Below the pieces are notes generated by a model. That model worked only from the letters and a program-made list of their open reading frames with translations, did no database searches and was not told the origin of the DNA. Below are positions 2,374 to 63,811 of a DNA stretch of 64,000 nucleotides, in pieces. Both the position numbers and the translations under genes were made by a program. This DNA comes from Collinsella aerofaciens (GTDB taxonomy: Bacteria; Actinomycetota; Coriobacteriia; Coriobacteriales; Coriobacteriaceae), in the NCBI RefSeq assembly GCF_015552075.1, contig NZ_JADNDZ010000121.1:1-64000 (forward strand), written 5' to 3'. Position 1 is the first letter of the stretch. Every line of letters begins with the position of its first letter.

Positions 2374-3804
2374 CTATTCGCCAAAGAACTCGTTGATCTT
2401 CTGCTCGTCGACGCCAAAGAACCACGTCAGGACAAAGCCGGCGGCATAGGCAAGCAGCATAGCGGCAACGTAGCCGAGCTGCTGGCCAGGAACGACGATC
2501 AGCAGGCCAAACAGACCGGAAACGCCCTGAGAAACCGTGCCGATGTGAAGCAGCGCCGCGAGCGCGCCGCCAAATCCGGCACCCAGGCAGGCCGTCACAA
2601 ACGGACGAACGAGCGGCAGCGTAACGGCATACATCAGAGGCTCGCCCACACCCAGGATGCCAACGGGAATGGATTCTGCGACGTACTTCTTGAGCTTGGC
2701 GTTCTTGGTCTTAAAGTACAGCGCCAGACCGGCACCGACCTGACCGCCGCCAGCCATCATAAGGATGGGAAGCAGATAATTGATGCCCTTGGTAGCGCCG
2801 TCGGGATCGTTGAGCATAGCGTGGATCGGCGTGAGCGCTTGATGCAGGCCGACGGAAACCAGCGGCAAGAAGCCTGCCGACAGGATATAGCCGCCCAGGA
2901 CGCCCAGCTTCTCGAAGATAAAGGTCAAAACGCTAAAGATGGCAGTCGTCAGCCATGCGCCGACCGGCTGGATGACGAGCATCAGAGCAAAGGCGCCGAT
3001 GATGAGCACCAGCAGCGGGGACAAGAACGTGTCGAGTGCGTTGGGCATAACCTTGCGAATCTGACGCTCCATCCAGGCAAAAAATGCGCCAGCGATAAGA
3101 GCCGCGATCATACCGCCCGCTGCGGGGTTGTACTGCGCATTGGTGAGCGGCAGCAGGATGGCAGTGGCAGGATCAGCCGCGCCAGGCGCAAGCAGGGGCA
3201 TGGCACTGTTGGCGATACACATCATGCCGGCGATGCCGCCCAGCGCAGCGGAGCCACCAAACTCACGTGCCGCGTTATAGCCCACCAAGATGGGCAGATA
3301 GGCAAACAGGGCCCAGCCCATGGAACGAATGCCCTGGTACCACCACTCGCCCGCAAGCGCACCTGCCGTCGAGACGTTAATGACGTTGCAGATACCGTTG
3401 ATAAGGCCAGCCGCAATGATGCCGGGAAGCAGGGCGACGAAGACATTGGAAATCTTCTTGAGGAAAGCCTGAACCGGCTTGGACTCGTACTTGGCCTTCT
3501 GCGCGGCCTTGTTTGTGGCCGCAGCGTCGACCACGCTCTCGTCAGCAACGCCTTTCGCAAGGCCGGTGAGCTTGGAGAACTCCTCGAGCACCTTATTCAC
3601 CTTGCCCGGCCCCAGCACGATCTGCATCGTGTCGTCCTCGACCAGACCCATCACGCCGTCGAGTGCCTTAATGCCCTCCGTGTCGACGCTGCCCGTGTCT
3701 TTGACGGTCACGCGCAGGCGCGTCATGCACGCCGCGTTTGCCAGCACGTTGTCTTTACCGCCCAAAAGGTCCAGCAGCTTTTGAGCCAGCTCTTTGTTCG
3801 TCAT
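2374..3804 (-). CDS. murP: PTS EIIBC component, MurNAc/MurNAc-GlcNAc type (MurP-like)
   Basis: A 476-residue membrane permease of the glucose/sucrose PTS superfamily. Residues 1-80 are an EIIB domain with the phosphorylated cysteine at residue 26 (ANAACMTRLRV). From about residue 107 a multi-spanning EIIC domain follows (VALLPGIIAAGLINGIC, GVGEPLMYAVTLP). No EIIA domain is fused, so a separate Glc-type EIIA must serve it. Substrate specificity is inferred from its neighbours murQ, mupG and murR: such clusters take up MurNAc or MurNAc-GlcNAc as the 6-phosphate. The start ATG follows GGAGGAG. It lies 57 nt downstream of murQ in the same operon. Confidence 0.88.
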   Translation of the reverse strand: MTNKELAQKLLDLLGGKDNVLANAACMTRLRVTVKDTGSVDTEGIKALDGVMGLVEDDTMQIVLGPGKVNKVLEEFSKLTGLAKGVADESVVDAAATNKAAQKAKYESKPVQAFLKKISNVFVALLPGIIAAGLINGICNVINVSTAGALAGEWWYQGIRSMGWALFAYLPILVGYNAAREFGGSAALGGIAGMMCIANSAMPLLAPGAADPATAILLPLTNAQYNPAAGGMIAALIAGAFFAWMERQIRKVMPNALDTFLSPLLVLIIGAFALMLVIQPVGAWLTTAIFSVLTFIFEKLGVLGGYILSAGFLPLVSVGLHQALTPIHAMLNDPDGATKGINYLLPILMMAGGGQVGAGLALYFKTKNAKLKKYVAESIPVGILGVGEPLMYAVTLPLVRPFVTACLGAGFGGALAALLHIGTVSQGVSGLFGLLIVVPGQQLGYVAAMLLAYAAGFVLTWFFGVDEQKINEFFGE

Positions 3805-11825: not shown

Positions 11826-11942
11826 CGGGCACAGGGTTACCTCCCAAATCGTCCTCGGACATGTCGGGAGCCCCGCCACGCGCTTCGCGCTGCGGGGCTC
11901 CCTCCGTCCTGCGGAAAGATTTGGGAGGTAACCCTGTGCCCG
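11826..11942. repeat. 117-bp nested palindrome
   Basis: A perfect 25-bp inverted repeat (11826-11850 with 11918-11942) encloses a second stem, GGGAGCCCCGC (11866-11876) with GCGGGGCTCCC (11892-11902), and a GC-rich apex containing TTCG. It can form a very stable cruciform or RNA hairpin and has no coding signal. It lies about 105 nt upstream of ftsE in a gene-free stretch (11720-12230) that also contains one 67-bp palindrome (12076-12142). Confidence 0.9.
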
Positions 11943-12075
11943 GCCTGCGGCTACTATGGGGCCGGCGCATCCATCTTAAGGTGCTGCGCATACAAAGTTG
12001 GGAGGGTCTGAATTGCACTTTTCTGTTCTGGGCCCTTTTCCCTAATGGGGCCTTGCTTGACAGGGCTTCTTCATA

Positions 12076-12142
12076 AGTTGCGGTGAAATACGGACTGTTT
12101 TACCAGTTAAAAGGCCTAATCAGTCCCTATTTCACCGCAACT
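12076..12142. repeat. 67-bp palindromic element, copy 1
   Basis: Ends are AGTTGCGGTGAAATA and its exact complement TATTTCACCGCAACT; the inner part pairs partially (GGACT with AGTCC). It is about 94 percent identical to copy 2 (four differences in 67 bases). Copies 3 and 4 share the ends only. It lies upstream of the zinc-ribbon protein gene. Confidence 0.9.
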
Positions 12143-12230: not shown

Positions 12231-13004
12231 ATGGTTTGTCCTTGTTGTGGCGCTGAGTTACGTGGTGGTGTGAGATACTGCACGACTTGTGGGGTTGCCG
12301 TTCATGGCTTATCGACTGTCCCGGCGTTCTGGGTACAGTCTCGGAAGCACGTCGTGGTCGTTCTTGTTTGTATGTTGACGATTGCTCTTGCCGGCGGCAG
12401 CTGGCTGGGGTTTCAACTGTATCGGACAATGTCTTGCTTTATATCGGCTCATTCGGAGCATGCTATTGTGCTCGATATCTCGGCCGCGGGTTGGGATACC
12501 GATAACGGGGCCTCGCGTGTCCCGATACACATCACGGGCAAAACCGTCGATGGGATAACGGTCGACGAGGTTGATTATGTAGCCTCCAACGGTTCCGGCA
12601 TCAGCCTCATACAAGGCGTGTACACGCTCGAGGCGGCAGGCTCCCCTATCGCCGTCGACGGCACGATCTATCAAATTCCATGCACGAGCGCCACACTAAC
12701 CCTCGACGATGTCTTCGCCACGGGCGAAACGATCGATCTGGCCGAACTCGCCGAGCAAGACTCAATACTCACCTTCCGCCCCATCGATGCCGGCGATATG
12801 ACCAACGACGAGATCTACAACGCCGCATTGCTCGCCATGGCATACAAAGGCAACGACGCGCCCAATGTGGCGGCCCTGTGCCAAGCAGCAATCAATCGTC
12901 GCGCCGCAGCCAGCACAAGCGGGGACGCCTTCAAAAGTTGCGGTGAAATAGGGAGTGTTTTACAAGTTAAAAGGGCTAATCAGTCCCTATTTCACCGCAA
13001 CTGA
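12231..13004 (+). CDS. Zinc-ribbon, single-pass membrane protein of unknown function
   Basis: 257 residues. The N-terminus has a zinc ribbon (CPCCG at 3-7, CTTC at about 17-20), then a membrane helix (VVVVLVCMLTIALAGGSWLG, about 40-60) and a largely beta-like external domain. This resembles zinc-ribbon membrane proteins common in Firmicutes and Actinobacteria, whose role is mostly unknown. ATG follows GAGG at five nt. The last ~24 residues, from about KSCGEIG to the stop, are encoded by the 67-bp palindrome copy 2, and the stop codon directly abuts its end, so the natural C-terminus appears to have been replaced. A second copy of the palindrome lies upstream. I do not know its function. Confidence 0.65.
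   Translation: MVCPCCGAELRGGVRYCTTCGVAVHGLSTVPAFWVQSRKHVVVVLVCMLTIALAGGSWLGFQLYRTMSCFISAHSEHAIVLDISAAGWDTDNGASRVPIHITGKTVDGITVDEVDYVASNGSGISLIQGVYTLEAAGSPIAVDGTIYQIPCTSATLTLDDVFATGETIDLAELAEQDSILTFRPIDAGDMTNDEIYNAALLAMAYKGNDAPNVAALCQAAINRRAAASTSGDAFKSCGEIGSVLQVKRANQSLFHRN
12936..13002. repeat. 67-bp palindromic element, copy 2
   Basis: Same length and ends as copy 1 (AGTTGCGGTGAAATA / TATTTCACCGCAACT). It overlaps the 3' end of the zinc-ribbon gene in frame and provides its C-terminal codons; the TGA stop uses its final bases. The tail-to-tail neighbour is the transketolase C-subunit gene. Confidence 0.9.
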
Positions 13005-13105
13005 AACAGGGGCGCCCTCTTGGAGAGCGCCCCTGCCGGGTTTCTATAGTACTGGCGAAGCAGTTTAATAGTTCTGACGAAGCAGCCCCTGAGATCCGTC
13101 TTGCC

Positions 13106-20785: not shown

Positions 20786-20971
20786 GGTAGGACTCCTTAT
20801 TGGTCAGGCGCTGGTTACCGATCAGCGCATAAGGCGTCTTGGTTTCCGACCAAGACAACAAACTCGGCTATGGTACCACGGCGCCGCGTGTCCCACAAAA
20901 GGTTCACGGTCTTTTCGGCACGACATGAGCTGGACCTTAAATATCAACTTCATCCGAACACTCCCCCACAT

Positions 20972-52330: not shown

Positions 52331-52397
52331 AGTTGCGGTGAAATAGTTCCTGGCTGACCGCCCGTCAGGCTTATCTAGGAACTATTTCACCGCAACT
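52331..52397. repeat. 67-bp palindromic element, copy 3
   Basis: AGTTGCGGTGAAATAGTTCC (a 21-bp arm in full) pairs exactly with its complement at the right end, around about 25 variable bases. It is 18 nt past the xdhC-type gene stop and about 250 nt upstream of rplE. Copy 4 (55116-55182) lies on the other side of the xdhC-yqeB-yqeC module. Confidence 0.92.
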
Positions 52398-52414: not shown

Positions 52415-53458
52415 CTAGCGCTTGCGGGGGACGAGTTTGGTACGGCGCAGGTGGATCATCTCGGCGGCGATGGAGATGGCGATCTCCTCGGGGTCCTCGG
52501 CCTGAATGGCAACGCCGATCGGCAGGTGCAGCTCGTCGATCTGGTCCTGCGTAAAGCCCTCCTGCTCCAGGCGGGCGCGCACAAAGGCCGTCTTACGGCG
52601 CGAGCCCAAGCAGCCCAGATAGGCGGGTTTGGCGCGCATGGCCTGAATCACCACGTCGATATCAGACTTGTGACCCGCCGTGGCGACGACCACCAGGTCG
52701 CGCGGGCCGATGGGGCACTGCTTGCTCAGGTTCTTGTAATCGACCAGGCGACGATCGTAGACACCGGGCACCCATTCGGGGGTCAGCGTGCCGGGGCGGT
52801 CGTCGCAAGCCACGACGGCAAAGCCCGCCGCCGTGAGCACCCGCGCCGTCGCGGCGCCCACGTGTCCGCAGCCAAAGATGTAGGTCAGGCCCTCGGGGCA
52901 GAGCGTCTCGATGTGCGCCGGGGGAATCTCGGAGGCGGCGTTGGTGTAGGTGACCTTACTCCCCTCCTCCACCAGCGAAAGCCCGGGGCAGCCCGCAATG
53001 GTGCGGCGCGATTCCTCGCCATGGTACTCGGCCACATCGCCCTCGAGCGCGCTCGCGATAAACGGCTCAAAGTCGATGACGAAGTCGCCGATGCGCCGAT
53101 AGGCCAAGACGTCGGCAATTTCCTGGAACAACGGTGCCTGGGTTGCATCCAGATGCAGGTAGCACAGGCAGATGGCCCCGCCGCAGATCATGCCGGTATC
53201 GGAGTTCTCGCCGCCCATGGTGTAGCGGACCAGACGCGACTGTCCCGCGCTCAGGAGCTCGCGCGCCTCATCCAGCGCAAAGAGCTCAATCTTGCCGCCG
53301 CCGATAGTGCCCGCCTGGCTACCATCGGCAAAGACGGCCATCCAGGCGCCCACGCCGCGCGGCGACGACCCTGCCGTGCCGGCAACTACCACCAACTCGC
53401 ACGTCTTACCAGCCTTCAGAGCGCCAAGCGCAGCATTCACCACATCGAGCTTTTCCAT
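52415..53458 (-). CDS. XdhC/CoxI-family molybdenum hydroxylase maturation protein
   Basis: 347 residues with the XdhC layout: N-terminal VVVAGTAGSSPRGVGAWMAV FADG and TIGGGKIELFALDEARELL, then a C-terminal Rossmann domain YIFGCGHVGAATARVLTAAG. Such proteins protect and insert the sulfurated molybdenum cofactor for xanthine dehydrogenase-type enzymes. Neighbours yqeB, yqeC and mocA support this. The hydroxylase subunits are not in the window. Start ATG 53458 follows AGGAAA; yqeB ends nine nt upstream. Confidence 0.9.
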   Translation of the reverse strand: MEKLDVVNAALGALKAGKTCELVVVAGTAGSSPRGVGAWMAVFADGSQAGTIGGGKIELFALDEARELLSAGQSRLVRYTMGGENSDTGMICGGAICLCYLHLDATQAPLFQEIADVLAYRRIGDFVIDFEPFIASALEGDVAEYHGEESRRTIAGCPGLSLVEEGSKVTYTNAASEIPPAHIETLCPEGLTYIFGCGHVGAATARVLTAAGFAVVACDDRPGTLTPEWVPGVYDRRLVDYKNLSKQCPIGPRDLVVVATAGHKSDIDVVIQAMRAKPAYLGCLGSRRKTAFVRARLEQEGFTQDQIDELHLPIGVAIQAEDPEEIAISIAAEMIHLRRTKLVPRKR

Positions 53459-54364: not shown

Positions 54365-55099
54365 ATGGAAACGGTTAGCGGCAATCTTGCCTCGACGCTC
54401 AGGATCGAGCCGGGCATTACCGCGATTATCGGCAGCGGCGGCAAGTCGACGTTGCTGAAGACGCTGGGTCTCGAGCTTATGCGCGCTGGCGGCCGCGTGC
54501 TCCTCTGTACCACCACGCACATGTTTCCCGTTGCCGGCGTGCCATGGGACGGGTCGAACCGTCGCCTGGACGCCGCGCCTTGGAAGCCGGGCGCCTCGCA
54601 TGTCCCCGGTTGCACCTGCGAGGCCTGCGCGGGCTTTGCGCGCGGAAGTATCTGCCAGACAGGTGTCTTGGACCCCCAGACAGGCAAGTTCTCCTCCCCT
54701 GCCGAGCCGCTCGACCAGCTGGCGCAGCGCTTTGACTACGTCCTGGCCGAGGCGGACGGCAGCAAGCGGCTCCCGCTCAAGACGCACGCCGCCTGGGAGC
54801 CGGTGATTCCCTCTGGCACGGCCAACATCGTCTGGATCGTCGGCGCCTCGGGGTTCGGCAAGCCCATCAACGAAGCCGTCCACCGCCCCGAGCTCTTTTG
54901 CGAGCGTTGCGGCTGCGAGCTCACTGACATCGCCACGCCCGAGCGCGTCGCCATGGTGCTCAATGCCGAGATGCGGATGCTGAACCTCAACAATGCCCGC
55001 ATCATGCTCAACCAAGTCGACACGCTCAGCGACCCCACGATGGCCGACCGCTTCGAGGCAGCTCTCGACCACCCCGTCGTCGCCAGCAGCCTCAAGTAG
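54365..55099 (+). CDS. yqeC: YqeC-type selenium cofactor biosynthesis protein
   Basis: 244 residues. A P-loop GSGGKSTLLKTLGLELMRAG near the N-terminus, the LCTTTHMFPV block, and ADGSKRLPLKTHAAWEPVIP identify the YqeC family of the selenium-dependent molybdenum hydroxylase cluster. A cysteine-rich loop CTCEACAG sits mid-protein. It probably uses nucleotide to assist cofactor assembly; the step is unknown. It ends 16 nt before palindrome copy 4 and is convergent with hydantoinase. Confidence 0.85.
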   Translation: METVSGNLASTLRIEPGITAIIGSGGKSTLLKTLGLELMRAGGRVLLCTTTHMFPVAGVPWDGSNRRLDAAPWKPGASHVPGCTCEACAGFARGSICQTGVLDPQTGKFSSPAEPLDQLAQRFDYVLAEADGSKRLPLKTHAAWEPVIPSGTANIVWIVGASGFGKPINEAVHRPELFCERCGCELTDIATPERVAMVLNAEMRMLNLNNARIMLNQVDTLSDPTMADRFEAALDHPVVASSLK

Positions 55100-55115
55100 C
55101 CGGCCCCATCTCCTC

Positions 55116-55182
55116 AGTTGCGGTGAAATACGGACTGTTTGGCCGCCCGACGGCCGCAAACAGTCCGTATTTCACCGCAACT
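55116..55182. repeat. 67-bp palindromic element, copy 4
   Basis: Core ends as in copies 1-3. Here the stem is perfect for 25 bases (31 bases counting CTCCTC/GAGGAG just outside), closed by GGCCG...CGGCC. It sits between the convergent yqeC and hydantoinase genes. Confidence 0.92.
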
Positions 55183-55208
55183 GAGGAGGGGACACGGCAT
55201 CTTTGCTG

Positions 55209-56576
55209 CTAGCGGGGCACGTAGCGACCGGGCTGGGCTCCGGTGGGCTCGCCGTCGCGCGCGGCCAGCACGCCATTCACAAACACAGCCTTGGCGCGGC
55301 CATGTGCCTCAAAACCCTCGAGCGGCGTGTAGTCCACAGCCTGATGCTGCGTCGCCGCGCGAATGGTCCAGCGCGCCTTGGGATCCCACACGCACACGTC
55401 GGCATCGGCACCCTCGGCAAGACAGCCCTTGCGCGGATACATGCCAAAGACGCGCGCCGGGTTCTCGCTCATCAGGCGGCAGAGGTCCTCGGGGCCCAGC
55501 TGTCCCTCAAAGCTCGTAGCGATCGCGACGGGACGATGCTCCACACCGGGTCCGCCGTTGGGAATCGCGCGGAAGTCGTCGCGCCCGCGGTCCTTTTGCC
55601 CGTGCAGGTTAAAGCTGCAGTGGTCGGTCGCGATCGTATCGACCTCGCCGGCCACAAGCGCCTCGCGCAGTGCCGCACGGTCGCCCGCATGGCGCAGCGG
55701 CGGGCTCATCACATATTTGGCGCCCGCAAAGCCGTCCTCGCCCTGCTCCAGATAGCAGGTGTCGTCGAGCATCAGATACTGGGGGCATGTCTCGACATAG
55801 ATGTTCTTCTGCCCGCGCGCTTTGGCAGCGCGAATGGCCTCGAGCCCCAGCTTGGTCGAAAGGTGCACTACGTTGACCGGAGCGTCCCCGGCCAAGTGCG
55901 CCAGATACAGCAGGCGGCTCACGGCCTCGGCCTCACACACGTCCGGACGGCTGAGCGCATGCCCCTCGGGCCCATGAATCCCCCGCTCGTACACGCGCTT
56001 CTGCAGCTCATTCACCAGCGTACCGTTCTCGCAATGCACGCACAGTATGCCGCCAATACGCTTGAGCTCCTCGAGCACCTCGAGCGTCTCGGCATCGTCC
56101 AAGCGCAAGTGGTCGTAGGCAAAGTAGGTCTTAAACGACGAAACGCCCGCCTCGCGCATAGCCGCGAGATCGGCGCGGTTGCGCTCATTCCACTCGGCGA
56201 GTGCCATATGAAAAGCGTAGTTTGCCGTGCAGGTGCCGTCGGCGCGGTGGTGCCACTCGGCAAGGGCATCGGGCATGGTCACGCCGCGGTCGGCCGTGGC
56301 GTAGTCCACGATGGTCGTCGTACCGCCGCAGGCGGCCGCACGCGTGCCGGTTTCAAAGCTATCGGCTGTCCAATCCATGCCAGTCCAGCACTGCATGTGC
56401 GTGTGGCCGTCGATAAAGCCCGGGAACACCCAACAGCCCGCGGCATCCTCGACGGTATCGCCCTCGCCCGGCTCAATCGCCGCGGCAATCCGCACAATCT
56501 TGTCGCCCTCCATGGCAAGATCGGCGCGGCGAAGCCCCTGGGGCGTCACGAGCGCGCCGTTTTTGATGATGATCAT
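55209..56576 (-). CDS. hyuA: Dihydropyrimidinase-type amidohydrolase (HyuA/D-hydantoinase)
   Basis: 455 residues: metal-binding GFIDGHTHMQCWTG, carboxylated lysine in SSFKTYFAYDHL, histidines in CVHCENGTLV and VVHLSTKLGLEA, aspartate in TDHCSFNLHG, all at the hydantoinase positions. It opens cyclic ureides such as hydantoin or dihydropyrimidine. In E. coli HyuA is in the yge cluster. GGAG four nt before ATG. It precedes mocA (transcribed ahead of it), eight nt apart. Confidence 0.9.
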   Translation of the reverse strand: MIIIKNGALVTPQGLRRADLAMEGDKIVRIAAAIEPGEGDTVEDAAGCWVFPGFIDGHTHMQCWTGMDWTADSFETGTRAAACGGTTTIVDYATADRGVTMPDALAEWHHRADGTCTANYAFHMALAEWNERNRADLAAMREAGVSSFKTYFAYDHLRLDDAETLEVLEELKRIGGILCVHCENGTLVNELQKRVYERGIHGPEGHALSRPDVCEAEAVSRLLYLAHLAGDAPVNVVHLSTKLGLEAIRAAKARGQKNIYVETCPQYLMLDDTCYLEQGEDGFAGAKYVMSPPLRHAGDRAALREALVAGEVDTIATDHCSFNLHGQKDRGRDDFRAIPNGGPGVEHRPVAIATSFEGQLGPEDLCRLMSENPARVFGMYPRKGCLAEGADADVCVWDPKARWTIRAATQHQAVDYTPLEGFEAHGRAKAVFVNGVLAARDGEPTGAQPGRYVPR

Positions 56577-63655: not shown

Positions 63656-63811
63656 CTTGATTTCTGTCCGTACACGTTGATAGACCCCATCGTGCCCGCA
63701 AGGAGCGGGCGCGTTTTATCCAGAGTCGGGGTAGAGAGTTGGCTCCACGATCCCGACGCCAACCGGCCAAGAGGCACGGTGGCCCTGCCAATATCGATGA
63801 AAGGAGTCCGT

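Follow-up and report, generated by a model that had tools for sequence, protein, structure and literature searches.

The 64,000-nucleotide stretch of Collinsella aerofaciens DNA that was analysed (hereafter the window) contains four palindromes of exactly 67 bp, each of which starts with AGTTGCGGTGAAATA and closes with the reverse complement of that sequence (Table 1), as a reading made from the sequence alone had reported; unpaired halves were absent from the 64 kb. Copies 2, 3 and 4 lie at gene 3' ends, which agrees with the earlier count of three out of four, and copy 1 is located in a divergent gap. The cores of copies 1 and 2, on either side of an ORF encoding 257 amino acids, are near-identical (21/23). 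The last base of copy 2 is the first base of the TGA codon of this ORF, and a separate hairpin (about 13009-13034) comes after copy 2. The palindrome itself makes up the final 22 codons of the ORF (SCGEIGSVLQVKRANQSLFHRN). Copy 3 is found 17 bp past the stop codon of the XdhC/CoxI family gene, which was assigned by Pfam and the C. aerofaciens annotation, and copy 4 is 16 bp away from the stop codon of yqeC and 26 bp away from that of hydA. The inner stems pair as had been claimed, except for one mismatched inner pair in copy 1 (CGG...CCC) and one in copy 2 (GAG...TCC). When the four copies were folded as single-stranded DNA, z values ranged from -7.5 to -12.2 and no shuffled sequence folded as well, which bears out the fold that had been proposed.

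Table 1. Coordinates of the 67-bp palindromes, adjoining genes and Rfam matches in the window.
Feature	Position	Strand	Remarks
Copy 1	12076..12142	.	type A, CGGACTG/CAGTCCC; gap upstream of ORF 12231-13004
257-aa ORF	12231..13004	+	zinc-ribbon start; between copies 1 and 2
Copy 2	12936..13002	.	type A; overlaps last 22 codons of ORF 12231-13004
L31-Coriobacteria ribosomal leader	20793..20828	-	Rfam match
Copy 3	52331..52397	.	type B, GTTCCTG/CAGGAAC, one G-T pair
XdhC/CoxI family gene	52415..53458	-	3' end abuts copy 3
yqeC	54365..55099	+	3' end abuts copy 4
85-bp covariance-model unit	55107..55191	.	copy 4 plus 9-bp flanks
Copy 4	55116..55182	.	type A; between convergent yqeC and hydA
Amidohydrolase (hydA; dihydropyrimidinase in annotated relative)	55209..56576	-	convergent with yqeC
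SAM riboswitch	63713..63803	+	Rfam match

None of the Rfam covariance models run on the window matched the element; the matches obtained were a SAM riboswitch and a ribosomal leader. An apparently different palindromic element is present at 11830-11960, where a long inverted repeat (GGGCACAGGGTTACCTCCCAAATC ... GATTTGGGAGGTAACCCTGTGCCC) surrounds GGGAGCCCCGC/GCGGGGCTCCC.

Exact TTGCGGTGAAATA halves were found 51 times in the whole genome, versus none for the reversed control, and at least 42 elements were recovered, every one of 67 bp. The covariance model, whose counts were halved because both strands score, gave about 47 copies in this genome and 20-48 copies per genome in 24 of 45 Collinsella genomes. 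These 24 carriers form one clade, consisting of C. aerofaciens and its close relatives, within which most copies have been inherited without a change of place. Outside the carrier clade, among 298 genomes of the class, there was one true copy (in G026, locus L176) and otherwise weak matches, two of which (L177 and L178) proved to be other palindromes when they were read. An exact-pattern scan of 84,980 species returned Collinsella records only, among the matches listed. The four copies are thus not unique to this contig, an outcome that would have told against the earlier proposal. The 67-bp palindromes of Collinsella are a real, clade-wide and constrained family, and literature searches found no description of it. 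The search of viral contigs and phages gave no match to the element. The sole match in the plasmid collection was NZ_OY725717.1 (Collinsella aerofaciens, 899,693 bp, PLSDB 'plasmid 6'), whose ribosomal protein genes, together with 21 places that match the element, make it look like a chromosome. A phage, viral or plasmid origin was rejected on these grounds.

From the outside inwards, each element consists of a flank with the consensus TAtRRGGG (read outward, on both sides, over all copies), an outer arm AGTTGCGGTGRAATA, a 7-bp inner stem and a 23-bp core. Of 232 copies, taken from 84 independent loci, 226 measured 67 bp, five 66 bp and one 65 bp. Sequence is constrained in the outer 15 bp of each arm, which diverge several times more slowly than the flanks: divergence per site was 0.012-0.026 in the outer arm, 0.055-0.094 in the core and 0.086-0.109 in the flanks, although the larger divergence set was partly picked by intact or exact arms, which inflates the arm-to-flank ratio. 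At loci picked by their flanking genes only, about 57 copies were present, with consensus-perfect arms in 36 and one mismatch in 13; one further row (L219) was a chance match. The 23-bp core drifts at roughly the neutral rate of the flanks, and cores are unrelated between loci, neighbours excepted. Nevertheless, the cores fold better than shuffled sequences (mean z -1.2 and -1.5). At position 11 of the arm, where A and G alternate, the observed distribution (33/39/12) coincided with Hardy-Weinberg expectation (32.8/39.4/11.8); the two arms vary independently there, and pairing is therefore not required at this position. The sequence-only reading had proposed that the fold, and not the sequence, is selected. 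This holds for pairing of the inner stem, as described below, but not for the outer 15 bp, which are kept as sequence. Counts of target-site duplications equalled chance, GTAG, GGAG or GTGG was found at the hairpin foot in none of 84 ends, and neither half forms a hairpin of its own (half-site mean folding energy -0.39 kcal/mol).

The inner stem occurs in two alternatives, type A (GGGACTG or CGGACTG) and type B (GTTCCTG). Counted by locus and type, 50 elements were AA, 42 were BB and 0 of 92 were mixed, versus the approximately 46 mixed ones expected if the arms drew their types independently (P about 4e-28). In two cases, switching of both arms together was also seen in orthologous copies. 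In cluster 42 (L247, L286), identical cores and the same outer arms enclose GTTCCTG/CAGGAAC in one case and GGGACTG/CAGTCCC in the other, with right flanks that agree and left flanks that do so only in part. In cluster 7, CGGTCTA/CAGACCG stands against GTTCCTG/CAGGAAC, with the same flanks and arm marks and a related core. This indicates that selection or a concerted process acts on inner-stem pairing. The reverse complement of the type A segment AGGGACT, namely AGTCCCT, is similar to the AGTTCCT of type B, a resemblance that may be due to chance. Correction within the palindrome is an unlikely cause of the matched inner arms, since position 11 is not homogenised. Whatever the mechanism, it must explain this unusual mutational signature, a two-state inner stem with both arms switched at once.

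The place of copy 4 differs between genomes. In G014 (L097) its core is inverted, 21 of 23 bases matching in inverted and 11 in direct orientation; G007, G019 and G062 have a type-B element there, G017 is empty, and G060, G061, G025 and G006 carry another palindrome family. Inversion of the core was rejected as a general cause of the type switches; the cores are themselves self-similar palindromes, so that inverted identity is convincing for L097 only. Copies are also lost by deletion, as at the L077 place, where half an element remains in G014 (L184), and at three loci (L198, L189 and L202) an insert between two elements in one genome corresponds to a single element in another. Close pairs are in excess (5 under 1.5 kb, 1.1 expected). 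Near-identical copies were local only, and even two genomes whose RAYT (see below) is intact had them as neighbours only; empty places exist, but no clean recent insertion with target duplication was found. Other palindromes share such surroundings. A second family, GGGGTAGCTAATTTGGGACGGGGCTCTTTTAGCTACCCC, was observed in or near the same gene-3' places (L112, L113, L114 and L107) and upstream of the element at L074. Further families were ATGATCCGTTTTCCTCCGTCCCC (L186, L187) and AGTCGTTTAAGAACGTCCCCAATGACT (L181, L182), and at the latter two loci a small palindrome occupies the same place but is turned round in G025 relative to G060.

Most elements lie shortly downstream of genes, and divergent gaps are avoided. 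The elements were located in 30 convergent, 39 tandem and 8 divergent gaps, whereas the corresponding numbers among gaps of 100 bp or more were 130, 306 and 133 (P = 0.0008 for convergent against divergent placement); the genes were called with a home-made hexamer caller, which took an antisense frame at copy 3, an error put right by means of Pfam and the annotated relative, so that some of these contexts are wrong. Within tandem pairs, the upstream stop codon was a median of 38 bp away and the downstream start codon a median of 120 bp. Intrinsic terminators (a GC-rich hairpin followed by a U tract) overlapped the element in 0 of 92 approaching units, and a Rho-independent terminator was rejected. 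The strand on which G-U wobble pairs would form was the sense strand in 10 tandem cases and the antisense strand in 15. An mRNA hairpin should favour the sense strand, which these counts do not. Hence, RNA acting on the sense transcript was rejected, and duplex or single-stranded DNA is favoured as the acting form.

Several RAYT-like Y1 proteins are encoded within Collinsella. One family, of 269 amino acids, adjoins sufU. Of the 24 carrier genomes, 23 have a member with at least 70% identity (in the assembly of the remaining one, G006, the sufU gene itself was not found), as against 0 of 21 non-carriers, where the best identity was at most 41%; the outgroups G013, G016 and G026 have sufU without the RAYT. 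This co-occurrence of elements and clade RAYT is confounded by shared clade ancestry. The match of the protein to the NCBIfam model REP_Tyr_transpos is below the curated cut-off, and by sequence no meaningful relative of solved structure was obtained (best E 0.25). Class 2 (RAYT) proteins bear Y---NP and HuH motifs (PMC6006769). Both motifs are kept in G019, G060, G062 and G004 (NHVH, YVHANP), whereas the catalytic tyrosine is replaced by serine in 19 of 23 genomes, this one included, and the asparagine by aspartate in most (SVHADP); the HUH histidines are also changed in 11 genomes. The reading frame of the altered genes is intact, with median pairwise dN/dS values of 0.26, 0.43 and 0.27 in three altered groups versus 0.13 in the intact group, and a C-terminal segment resembling a helix-turn-helix is kept. 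Judged from these substitution patterns, the RAYT-like protein that has lost its catalytic tyrosine is under purifying selection. Neither the clade RAYT nor the other RAYT-like genes examined had a copy of the element alongside, so that what links them is their co-occurrence, a pattern for which shared ancestry could suffice. A search for the partner RAYT through flanking copies likewise yielded none, and a 282-aa RAYT family was rejected as partner because only about half of the clade has such a protein.

Related palindromes were seen elsewhere in the genus. At L145, a RAYT-like gene lies between inverted repeats AACCTGCCAAAATAAACCTGTCCCTTTTTGGCAGGTT (1625-1663, 2396-2433 and 3362-3398), a REPtron-like unit in Collinsella, and the centre of L177 (G013) is a REPIN-like doublet of two inverted 33-bp hairpins on GGGAAAATA-GGGACAGGCAC-TATTTTCCC. 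Palindromes that are RAYT-linked or related, in the genus and the order (L145, L177, L178), have GGGACAG/CTGTCCC, which is close to the inner stem GGGACTG.

With moderate confidence, we interpret the palindromes as an old, clade-specific REPIN-like family with two inverted ends, each made up of 15 fixed bp and the 7-bp inner stem, that enclose a 23-bp core. The inner part would mainly preserve length and pairing. Dispersal would have taken place before the C. aerofaciens clade diversified, presumably by a RAYT-type Y1/HUH transposase acting on the single-stranded DNA hairpin, and the elements may have settled behind genes because insertion would be least harmful there. What keeps the ends constant would be a role of the sites in DNA binding, possibly through the RAYT-like protein. 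Today's copies have in some cases been deleted or given way to other palindromes, and only local ones are near-identical; the ends of the elements are far more constant than the neighbouring DNA, also where the RAYT-like protein of the clade lacks the catalytic tyrosine. A tentative extension, to which we give a rather low probability, is that the catalytically dead RAYT was domesticated as a host DNA-binding protein, the 67-bp palindromes being its putative maintained sites behind genes. The REPIN population would then have been converted into regulatory or chromosome-organising sites as transposition ended, the whole at the same low probability. The protein in question has serine in place of the tyrosine, aspartate in place of the metal-binding asparagine in most genomes and altered HUH histidines in 11, and it retains the C-terminal helix-turn-helix.

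The constancy of the ends could also be explained without any transposase, if the elements were sites for a host chromosomal protein that binds them as duplex, with two inverted half-sites at fixed spacing, and that serves behind genes in, for example, domain organisation, supercoiling or roadblock termination. Conservation of the outer arms as sequence, the bidirectional symmetry with its preference for convergent gaps, the persistence of the elements while RAYT catalytic residues were lost and the independence of position 11 in each arm, as separate duplex half-sites would give, all point in that direction. Alone, however, it leaves unexplained both the unmixed inner-stem types and the better-than-shuffled folding of the core, and no candidate protein was identified; we regard it as possible but unlikely. 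A hairpin acting as RNA in 3' untranslated regions, in mRNA stability, processing or termination, would suit the strong fold, the matched inner stems and the short distance that separates the element from the preceding gene in tandem pairs (median 38 bp). It is distinctly improbable, given that the wobble strand is transcribed no more often than chance, that A-C mismatches are tolerated at position 11, that the outer arms are conserved beyond pairing, and that neither an overlapping terminator nor an Rfam family was found.

Mobile elements of other kinds were weighed as well. That the palindromes are MITEs of a DDE-type insertion sequence since lost from the clade would account for inverted ends, multiple intergenic copies and the fact that other palindromes have taken their place at some sites. 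But target-site duplications are not above chance, the ends do not decay along with the core, and every exact half with an assembled partner is paired at the fixed spacing, none at transposon distance. Viral and phage matches are lacking, and the plasmid record bears ribosomal genes. This origin is therefore improbable; in this genome, no resident insertion sequence with the same terminal repeats was seen. The loci with an insert between two elements led us to consider an attC-like recombination site for gene cassettes, in which the elements would flank inserts and cores would be exchanged via recombination of the arms. The excess of close pairs would fit such a site, as would the inverted core and the switched types seen at places that stay fixed; however, genes are gained at such gaps also without elements, the attC core motif (RYYYAAC / GTTRRRY) is absent, and the elements are dispersed over many contigs instead of forming tandem arrays. 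Moreover, the paired copies are often diverged duplicates, as ordinary duplication or homologous recombination would give. We consider this reading very improbable indeed.

Among known systems, ERIC, RUP and Correia elements are MITE-like palindromes located between genes, with a set size and conserved ends. The Collinsella elements differ from them in that the interiors are unrelated between copies while the ends are constant, and no target duplication was seen. Enterobacterial BIME/REP sequences, sites for gyrase and IHF, are likewise palindromes behind genes, and a possible protein binding is a further likeness; sequence, length and fixed spacing are different. Closer in kind are the TIR repeats of RAYT-like 'TIRYT' genes, which are inverted and lack the GTAG motif (PMC3733652). 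They share with the Collinsella family a moderate abundance, the link to a RAYT-like Y1 protein and single or dimeric occurrence, but they flank their own transposase gene (PMC3733652), which the Collinsella elements do not.

The closest parallel is offered by REPINs, inverted REP doublets that form a hairpin and are moved by RAYT transposases (Bertels and Rainey 2011, PMC3116915; PMC8049555). Their ends are an invariant 16 bp, and the spacer is less conserved, its length and capacity to form a hairpin being what matters, with compensatory changes (PMC3116915); in the GI REPIN of P. fluorescens, 71 bp lie between the ends (PMC3116915). The Collinsella elements have conserved inverted ends at a set distance, one long hairpin as single strand and a RAYT-type Y1/HUH protein in the carriers. 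They further resemble REPINs in a variable spacer of constrained length and pairing with compensatory changes, in near-invariance of the ends, in their extragenic position, in tens of vertically inherited copies and in occasional local clusters. On the other hand, they have no GTAG/GGAG tag, their halves are not small palindromes and no copy lies by the RAYT; as these three hallmarks of REP sequences failed, the family is classed as REPIN-like and not as REPIN. Additional differences are the pair of inner-stem alternatives, between which both arms switch, and a candidate RAYT without catalytic residues in 19 of 23 genomes. The earlier statement that no named element has this signature was only half right: REPINs match its overall plan (PMC3116915). 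REPINs persist vertically for long periods with a single-copy RAYT (PMC8049555), and the reasons for this very long persistence of RAYT/REPIN populations are not known. According to the published model, REPs decay after inactivation of the RAYT (PMC3686654); in Collinsella, by contrast, the ends are constant though the only clade-wide RAYT lacks its catalytic residues in most genomes. If the RAYT-like protein were the partner, a host-level function would be separated here from transposition and could be tested in a common gut bacterium.
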